Positions 9,412 through 35,069 of a stretch of DNA of 38,236 bases are shown here, one piece after another; the first letter of the stretch is position 1; each line of letters opens with the position of its first letter. Both the position numbers and the translations under genes were made by a program. This DNA comes from a virus, in IMG/VR virus record IMGVR_UViG_3300025137_000104, positions 1 to 38,236 of that record, one strand, 5' to 3'. Below the pieces are notes generated by a model that saw only the letters and a program-made list of their open reading frames with translations, ran no database searches and was not told where the DNA came from.

Positions 9412-9636
9412 TTATGCTTTGTGTAAATTCTCGATTCCTTCAATATTTGGTATTTCAACAGGTGACATATTTTTGACTGTCTTCAAAAAAGCTTCACGCC
9501 TTTTGTCATTAAATCCCCCTTGTTTTACTACCTCTAATTCGTTTTTGATCAAATAATACATAGGTTTACTATGTTCTTCGATAACCTTTAATTGATCATT
9601 AAAAAATCGCTGCTGTTCTTCTGTTAATGTTATCAT
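9412..9636 (-). CDS. Small tail-region protein (74 aa)
   Basis: Highly helical and charged (LTEEQQRFFNDQLKVIEEHS, then NELEVVKQGGFNDKRREAFLK). The ATG overlaps the stop of the 580-residue tail gene (ATGA). Position suggests a small assembly factor or structural subunit. No family was recognised. Confidence 0.6.
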   Translation of the reverse strand: MITLTEEQQRFFNDQLKVIEEHSKPMYYLIKNELEVVKQGGFNDKRREAFLKTVKNMSPVEIPNIEGIENLHKA

Positions 9637-33510: not shown

Positions 33511-34302
33511 TTAGTTAATACTCATTTCCTCATACCCTCTTCCCTCATGCATCCTTTTATCTGTTTCCCATCTACTTTTGTTGTTGTGTCTTACTATTAG
33601 CCCGTTTATCTTATACCTGTACTTGGATTTCGCCTTGGCTTCCTGATTCTTAAATTCATCCTCAAACCTTCTCTTTGATAAGTAAGTCCTAGCAAATACA
33701 ATATACTTGCTATCCGATACCGACCCCTTGTAAGCCTTTATCATTTCTACTGCCTTTCCTTGATCGGTTTTATTTAGCTTCTTCCAAGCCTTTGCAGCTT
33801 CCGCCTTGGCTGATTTTGTTAGTCCTGTTATCTCGTGGTACTTATCCCAAAAAAACAAAAAATCAACAGTATACTTATTATCATTTATTAGTATAGTCAT
33901 TTCTTTGTTTAGTCCTTTCTTAGTAGTTGCGGCTTTCCCGTCTACGGGTTTCCCGTTTACGGCTTTCCCGTCTACGGGTTTTCCGTCTTGGTTGTCTTCT
34001 TTATATTCTGGCTCATCAGAAACTAGATAATTGTAACCCTTAAACTTTCCTTTACCGTCTCTATTTAATGACCTGTAAACATAGCCTTCATTGATAAGCT
34101 CTTTTAAGCCGTTTGCAGTTGCTTCCTTGCCATCCTTTCCCACTTTTGATAGTTGGGTGACATAAACACTCCAATCATCAGGACGGCTAATTAAATACAG
34201 TAATAAGCCTTTTGCTTTCCAAGACAAATTTGGATGATTAGGAATATCATTAGGAACGTTTGTAAATCTTGTCGTTCGTTTCTTTCTGGTAATCTTACTC
34301 AT
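33511..34302 (-). CDS. Replication initiator-like protein (lambda-O/DnaD-type), with iterons in gene
   Basis: A protein of 263 residues. N-terminal winged helix (about 10-100, LSWKAKGLLLYLISRPDDWS) as in phage initiators. A repeat linker of DGKPV/DGKAV/NGKPV/DGKAA (about 103-122) corresponds to 15-bp DNA iterons. A C-terminal alpha domain (about 140-235, VDFLFFWDKYHEITGLTKSA) like the part that recruits helicase loaders. Upstream leader contains an intrinsic terminator 11 bases before the ATG, so expression depends on read-through. Confidence 0.7.
   Translation of the reverse strand: MSKITRKKRTTRFTNVPNDIPNHPNLSWKAKGLLLYLISRPDDWSVYVTQLSKVGKDGKEATANGLKELINEGYVYRSLNRDGKGKFKGYNYLVSDEPEYKEDNQDGKPVDGKAVNGKPVDGKAATTKKGLNKEMTILINDNKYTVDFLFFWDKYHEITGLTKSAKAEAAKAWKKLNKTDQGKAVEMIKAYKGSVSDSKYIVFARTYLSKRRFEDEFKNQEAKAKSKYRYKINGLIVRHNNKSRWETDKRMHEGRGYEEMSIN
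33935..33994. repeat. Four 15-bp iterons inside the initiator gene (candidate origin)
   Basis: TTCCCGTCTACGGGT at 33935 and 33965 are identical. TTCCCGTTTACGGCT at 33950 differs at three positions, and the copy at 33980 is degenerate. The two perfect units carry a dyad CCCGT-CT-ACGGG. AT-rich DNA (about 33845-33920) adjoins the array, suited to strand opening. Confidence 0.7.
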
Positions 34303-34312
34303 GGGAGGAAAT

Positions 34313-34343
34313 AAAAAAAGGTCATACCGAGGGAAGTATGACC
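34313..34343 (-). terminator. Intrinsic terminator in leader A
   Basis: Stem GGTCATAC/GTATGACC (8 bp), 8-nt loop TTCCCTCG, then seven T residues on the minus strand. It ends 11 bases before the initiator ATG (34302), too close for a plain end of transcription. Confidence 0.88.
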
Positions 34344-34407
34344 AAGCTAAACACTAGGGTGTCTAGTTCAGACAAATGTACTGATTCCCTCAAACCAAAA
34401 CATTTGC

Positions 34408-34446
34408 CTTTTATGTATGCAAATATACTGAATTATTTGCTGATAT
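34408..34446 (-). repeat. 39-nt direct repeat, copy A
   Basis: Matches 35031-35069 at 37 of 39 positions. Covers the last codons and stop (ISK stop) of the 162-residue gene and a TATATTTG box (34427-34420). Confidence 0.9.
34420..34427 (-). promoter_or_regulatory. Candidate -7 box TATATTTG of leader A
   Basis: Fits TAnnTTTG. No TTTG is visible at the -33 distance. Start would be near 34413. Its repeat partner in leader B is TATATTTA. Confidence 0.45.
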
Positions 34447-34921
34447 TTTTTAATGCTTGGTATTCTTTTTTTATTGATAAAAGCTCTTTTTGCGCCTGTT
34501 TCATGCTGTGTTCTAGCCTTTTTGCTTCCTCTCTTTTATTTGAAATTATTTCACTTATTTCATTTCCATAATAATCTAAGAAAAACAACCTTCCCTCTTT
34601 TGTTAAAAGATTAAACATTTGAAAAGGCGTAACAAAATTATTATACACATTGTGTAAATTAGTTTTGTATTTAATACTGTTTAAATACTCTATACCATCT
34701 ACACACCCACCCATAACTATTAATTGATGGTTTTTACTTTCTAATTTCGTCCATCCATTATTTGAGCCAAGATGATTTTTTGACCTTTCTATTTTGAATT
34801 TTAAAAAGCCTAAAAACATATCCATTTTAATAGGATTTTTATTGTAATTAAAAGCAATCAAATCTAAATCTAACTTTGTATAAAAAAGCTCTTCTATGTT
34901 TATATCGTGGGAATCTGCCAT
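34433..34921 (-). CDS. Hypothetical protein (162 aa), cassette bracketed by repeats
   Basis: N-terminal mixed part (KLDLDLIAFNYNKNPIKMDM), a beta centre (LIVMGGCVDGIEYLNSIKYK), and a C-terminal coiled coil (about 130-160, EEAKRLEHSMKQAQKELLSI). No recognised family. The gene, with its own leader, lies between two copies of a 39-nt repeat, as if inserted next to the coiled-coil gene whose end it copies. Confidence 0.6.
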   Translation of the reverse strand: MADSHDINIEELFYTKLDLDLIAFNYNKNPIKMDMFLGFLKFKIERSKNHLGSNNGWTKLESKNHQLIVMGGCVDGIEYLNSIKYKTNLHNVYNNFVTPFQMFNLLTKEGRLFFLDYYGNEISEIISNKREEAKRLEHSMKQAQKELLSIKKEYQALKNISK

Positions 34922-35050
34922 AATTGAGGGAATAAAAAAAGCCCGATACAGGTAGGAGGCTGTAAACGGGCGTAAAACTCTATTGAGCTTTGCGCAATGA
35001 ATCTTTATCTCCTACAATAAAAATTCACTGCTTTTATGTATGTAAATATA
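34922..35050 (-). ncRNA. Leader RNA B of the 162-residue gene
   Basis: Same layout as leader A: repeat box, then GTAGGAG (35015-35009), a hairpin (34995-34970, 11 positions, one U-G and one A-C), and a terminator with loop CCTCCTAC. The 7-mer is the exact complement of CTCCTAC in the loop. Confidence 0.65.
34934..34971 (-). terminator. Intrinsic terminator in leader B
   Basis: GCCCG/CGGGC and TACAG/CTGTA stems (34941-34971), 8-nt loop, and seven T residues (34940-34934) on the minus strand. The next gene's ATG is 13 bases further. Confidence 0.88.
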
Positions 35051-35069
35051 CTAAATTATTTGCTGATAT
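35031..35069 (-). repeat. 39-nt direct repeat, copy B
   Basis: Covers the stop region of the coiled-coil gene and the start of leader B. Two mismatches to 34408-34446. Confidence 0.9.

Follow-up and report, generated by a model that had tools for sequence, protein, structure and literature searches.

A candidate family of phage leader RNAs in which a 5' hairpin loop is predicted to kiss the terminator loop, upstream of replication and other genes

The window analyzed here, i.e. the whole stretch of DNA under study, is a 38,236-base IMG/VR virus record from a tailed phage, whose primase/helicase has its closest match among phage records in Cellulophaga phage phi10:1 (42% identity). Two of its minus-strand genes are preceded by leaders, named A and B, which are both on the minus strand, have promoter boxes of the Bacteroidota type, and share the same order of elements: promoter segment, hairpin H1, hairpin H2, terminator hairpin H3, seven T, and ATG. 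The original prediction had described them as two paralogous leaders with a common repeat, complementary words, hairpins with 4-nt loops, terminators, a run of seven T and an ATG, and all of these elements were found. The features, with the basis of each leader element in parentheses, are as follows.

33511..34302, minus strand: replication initiation protein gene behind leader A (PHROG 4707, 270, 428)
34313..34319, minus strand: leader A, seven T, U-tract (sequence)
34320..34343, minus strand: leader A, terminator hairpin H3 (fold and scan)
34347..34366, minus strand: leader A, hairpin H2, 8 bp with a 4-nt loop (fold)
34370..34409, minus strand: leader A, 5' hairpin H1, 10+7 bp with one mismatch (fold)
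34420..34427, minus strand: leader A, -7 promoter box TATATTTG, matching TAnnTTTG (sequence)
34433..34921, minus strand: gene behind leader B, 162-aa protein of unknown function
34934..34940, minus strand: leader B, seven T, U-tract (sequence)
34941..34971, minus strand: leader B, terminator hairpin H3 (fold and scan)
34974..34991, minus strand: leader B, hairpin H2, 7 bp with a 4-nt loop (fold)
34994..35031, minus strand: leader B, 5' hairpin H1, 16 bp with a 6-nt loop (fold)
35043..35050, minus strand: leader B, -7 promoter box TATATTTA (sequence)

The two leaders have a 39-nt repeat in common (34446-34408 in A, 35069-35031 in B, minus strand, 37 of 39 positions identical), which includes the -7 box of each, TATATTTG in A and TATATTTA in B; the transcription start of leader A is predicted at about 34415. 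In leader A, the word GAGGGAA (34391-34385) lies in the apical loop region of H1, where its flanks form a weak upper stem when it is not kissing, and it is complementary to TTCCCTC (34335-34329) in the H3 loop. In leader B, GTAGGAG (35015-35009) lies in H1 and is complementary to CTCCTAC (34958-34952), within the 8-nt loop of H3. The purine 7-mer is present as described, but it is not free: it is the apical loop of H1, a hairpin of 16-17 bp that had been overlooked. Because the 7-mer sits in the loop of a 5' hairpin, the predicted contact in both leaders (GAGGGAA/TTCCCTC and GTAGGAG/CTCCTAC) is a true loop-loop kiss. Both H3 hairpins directly adjoin the seven T, as is typical of an intrinsic terminator, and the start codons follow 10-12 bases past the T-run (ATG at 34302 after A and at 34921 after B). 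When compared with dinucleotide shuffles, the folding z-scores were -5.7 for A and -6.9 for B, and none of 200 shuffles was equally stable.

In order to find related leaders, contigs around replication genes were collected via relatives of the helicase, cultured phages were added by record, and the sequences were scanned for terminator hairpins with a loop complementary to upstream RNA. The first matches beyond the window were in contigs L004 (words GTGGACG/CGTCCAC), where the leader precedes an initiator-type gene, and L024 (CTACGAC/GTCGTAG), where HNH, initiator and helicase genes follow. Contig L084 has two leaders in one phage, like the window; further leaders were found in L141 and L071, and those of L140 and L145 precede ERF genes. 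Among cultured phages, Tenacibaculum phage JQ has a leader with a 10-bp kiss in the gap before a small ORF, initiator and primase/helicase genes, and the same gap carries a leader in Flavobacterium phage hattifnatt9-1, which has three leaders altogether, and in Cellulophaga phages phi10:1 and phi19:1. Leaders are also present in morran9-1, hemulen6-1, tooticki6-1 and elemoC. The curated total is 56 leaders with 47 different kissing words in dozens of phages. They have a promoter box upstream and an ATG downstream, and the genes behind them encode replication initiators, ERF recombinases, a helicase, endonucleases and a large number of unassigned proteins; the predicted position at or just upstream of an initiator gene or operon was thus seen again in other phages.

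The members of the set vary in several respects. H2 is optional, and the U-tract is broken or weak in some relatives (phi10:1, L182 and L170). Cross-pairing is absent between the words of different leaders in the same phage: most have no match at all, and the longest match is 5. The pair GTGAGAAG/CTTCTCAC is side-swapped, with GTGAGAAG on the 5' side in L235 and L170 and on the 3' side in L172 and L167, which suggests that the pairing may count more than the side bearing each word. Many words begin with GTG on one side or end with CAC on the other. A similar promoter followed by a lone terminator hairpin and an ATG, without a 5' partner, was observed in L065 (250, minus strand), and is perhaps a simpler relative. 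In Flavobacterium phage morran9-1 (L235, NC_048836.1), positions 139-173 of the plus strand match the Rfam DUF805b RNA (RF02914, 52 bits) before a ParB-like gene; this region corresponds to that of the kissing leader before the endonuclease gene in the sister phage hattifnatt9-1.

The exact promoter core of A and B had no match in the viral contigs scanned, and a looser pattern gave 34 stretches, among which only the record of L004 (duplicate: L039) was recognized as a kissing leader. Covariance model R1 gave no match among the 12 candidates scored per genome in 295 Bacteroidia genomes, a result with weak bearing on prophages and hosts. With the window initiator protein as query, one weak relative was found (L003), and no kissing leader was found there; likewise, the L034 homologue of the gene behind leader B (50% identity) has no kissing leader.

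Several comparisons with controls were made. A filtered scan, which required a promoter, a terminator, a downstream ORF and a non-coding position, gave 48 distinct leaders with a reverse-complement loop, versus 5 with reversed and 5 with complemented controls; the scan without promoter and ORF filters was too noisy to trust. In a set selected blind to complementarity, 33 of the 44 leaders have at least seven complementary bases in cis, versus a mean of 2.9 and a maximum of 10 in 1000 permutations of the partners. Twelve related leaders, most of them located before the same small ORF, were aligned with MAFFT without structure. In this alignment, 93.3% of the cells in the kiss, 5' stem and terminator stem are paired, versus 36-47% when the pairing is slid, the covariation score is 0.523 versus 0.04-0.14, and one kiss column pair displays all four Watson-Crick pairs. 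The covariation anticipated by the original prediction between the 7-mer and the loop was therefore observed, as compensatory changes in orthologous leaders that affect the kiss and both stems, and the complementarity, whose loss in related phages would have spoken against the model, is retained although the words change. A covariance-model search of phage sequence, also proposed there, was performed with a model of the two stems only, the kiss being left out; it gave nine matches in 439 kb, all of them previously found kissing leaders, two from the training group and seven from outside it.

Gene-sense RNA is more stable than antisense RNA (p=1e-5, and p=2e-8 with the kissing words masked), which places the structure in the transcript rather than in the DNA alone. 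When the 3' half was folded alone, 83% of the terminator-side complementary bases were unpaired, a value partly built into the scan, for which the loop location of the words was in part a condition. The fold z-scores and the complementarity conserved across phages make the structure more than chance, and we consider the kissing structure close to certain.

The position of the words along the transcript bears on the timing of the contact. The -7 box TAnnTTTG of Flavobacterium psychrophilum spans -12 to -5 (PMC9723704), and if positions are counted accordingly, the 5' word (median start +9.5) begins at about +5 to +15 in most leaders, and later in leaders with a long H1, such as A. The spacing between the two kissing words is 37-61 nt. 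From the last base of the 3' word to the end of the U-tract there are 17-47 nt (median 27); with about 14 nt taken as covered by the enzyme, this word should be outside the polymerase before the termination decision.

We propose, with a probability of about 0.6, that the leaders act in cis as self-contained transcription attenuators, in which the kiss sets readthrough into the gene and the leader likely controls termination. Transcription would start at the TAnnTTTG promoter, and the 5'-terminal hairpin H1 would fold first. The H1 loop would pair with the terminator loop, typically over 7-10 bp, as the latter leaves the RNA polymerase, and the kiss would form ahead of the completion of the terminator 3' arm and U-tract. 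It would then set how frequently the polymerase passes into the gene, often one of replication or recombination, and the terminated product would be released as a compact leader RNA, about 90-110 nt long. We infer from the arrangement of the elements that the U-tract hairpin terminates transcription and that the kiss alters this termination. As for the direction, our best guess is that the kiss slows hairpin closure and favours readthrough, because H1 is the earliest hairpin to form, the 3' word has already emerged while the U-tract is still being made, and transcripts from this promoter have to pass the terminator to reach the gene. Against an attenuator, the U-tract is broken or weak in some relatives, a kiss in the terminator loop need not alter the stem, and no alternative antiterminator strand was present in the minimum-energy folds of A and B. 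With somewhat less than even confidence, we further propose a protein-free, ligand-free switch class, in which the 5' end of the transcript would grip the loop of its own promoter-proximal terminator and a folding race would set readthrough, and which would recur across Bacteroidota phages, several operons of a single phage each having a copy with its own, separately evolved orthogonal "key".

Release of the kiss by a ribosome, a protein or a trans RNA had been suggested in the original prediction. Ribosome control and a common trans RNA are disfavoured, as there is neither a conserved mini-ORF nor a shared word. An ATG mini-ORF of at least 8 codons that ends within the leader is present in only 13 of 53 leaders, and no conserved short leader ORF, as in amino-acid leader-peptide attenuators, was found among these 53. 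The words of A and B are different and show no cross-pairing, which makes a diffusible partner RNA common to both leaders unlikely. Purine and preQ1 riboswitches, which contain kissing loops or pseudoknots, resemble these leaders in combining tertiary loop pairing with a terminator in a leader RNA. Unlike them, the phage leaders have no conserved ligand-binding core and have little primary sequence in common; the invariant columns of alignment A6 are the promoter box and a few scattered positions, and not a core of the metabolite-riboswitch type. A metabolite aptamer is disfavoured because of this low conservation of primary sequence.

The best surviving alternative to the attenuator, although an improbable one, is a 5' cap-like fold, in which the kiss would close the RNA end and protect the mRNA or aid its translation after readthrough, with the U-tract being secondary. 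The early position of the 5' word in most leaders and the imperfect U-tracts of several would agree with such a role; however, the hairpin and the immediate T-rich run are kept in most leaders, though the scan selected for them. Less probable still is that the terminated leader acts in trans, as a stable small RNA, on phage or host RNA. The leader would be suited to this, as a compact RNA of some 100 nt that has both a promoter and a terminator of its own, but its exposed sequence is not conserved, as the number of different words indicates, and the elements are always located just upstream of a gene, though the filter required it.

We give the same low probability to recognition of the fold by a protein or by RNA polymerase itself, with put- or nut-like antitermination that would also act on downstream terminators. 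Shape reading predicts what was found, namely the same shape before several operons of one phage without a common word, and the HK022 putRNA shows that a leader can act on polymerase: it antiterminates in cis through direct binding to the enzyme, and its effect reaches terminators as far as 10 kb away (PMC9378689). The phage leaders are similar to HK022 putRNA and lambda nut in being early phage leaders near the promoter that are linked to terminator passage, in the case of put without a phage protein. Unlike put, each of them holds its own terminator, with whose loop it is predicted to pair, and the element recurs in front of single operons; no polymerase contact or partner protein is known.

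Marginally less probable than these is an intermolecular loop pairing, in which released leaders would bind nascent ones and exert feedback on a replication gene in the style of plasmid copy control. This would be consistent with loop pairs that are self-complementary and private to their own leader, with the initiator genes that follow several leaders, and with the analogy to the pT181 repC leader, which kisses an antisense RNA in trans and in which an antiterminator sequesters the 5' part of the terminator stem (PMC4878617). The leaders resemble that of pT181 in their location before a replication initiator gene, their intrinsic terminator and their loop-loop kissing, but here the predicted kiss joins the 5' loop to the terminator loop of its own RNA, and with the spacing found between the words such a cis kiss should win. 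Antisense control is also disfavoured by the lack of any excess of opposite-strand promoters, a box of this kind being found in 7 of 48 leaders and 3 of 47 control stretches. In ColE1, RNA I and RNA II form an intermolecular kiss that acts on primer formation and is stabilized by Rop. The phage leaders share with it two complementary loops of about 7 nt that kiss, and the tie to replication control, whereas an intermolecular kiss, an action on primer formation and Rop were not seen for them. Chance, or DNA-level inverted repeats without an RNA role, can be practically dismissed: AT-rich genomes do yield many short complementary words, and in the scan without promoter and ORF filters the controls were not far below the true count, but the enrichment, permutation, covariation and strand asymmetry are all contrary.

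The attenuator leaders proposed here appear to form a family that sequence databases miss. Rfam 15 gave no match in the window at the gathering thresholds of its families, and the leaders of L235, L236, L238 and L239 were unmatched with E relaxed to 1. Because the pairing, and not the sequence, is conserved, the leaders escape homology searches and Rfam. No matching description was found in the open literature searched; subscription papers were largely outside this search, and an earlier description is possible. To our knowledge, there is no precedent for this leader architecture. The retention of the shape despite the changing sequence indicates a new family of regulatory RNA elements, which we place within the known "terminator leader" kind. 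If this is true, a regulatory RNA family recurs at the gateway to DNA replication in Bacteroidota phages, a group in which little is known of gene control, and provides a natural set of orthogonal kissing leaders. Whether a terminator held by its loop terminates more or less is a question that can be addressed in the cultured phages JQ, hattifnatt9-1, phi10:1 and phi19:1 and in the elemo phages.

Some further observations concern the genes around the leaders. Iteron-like repeats are located within the window initiator gene (33930-33988) and likewise within that of L004 (about 539-619, by eye), which suggests that the replication origin may lie inside the leader-preceded gene. The gaps that hold the leaders were left blank by annotators, and one start codon was placed inside a terminator: the annotated start of helicase gp34 of hattifnatt9-1 (L154) is at 9441, inside the leader terminator (region 9441-9477), and an ATG 17 bases past the T-run opens the identical long frame. 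Finally, a plus-strand gene at 198-908 of the window, oriented against the majority of the phage genes, encodes a pentapeptide-repeat protein (Pfam PF00805, E 1e-34).
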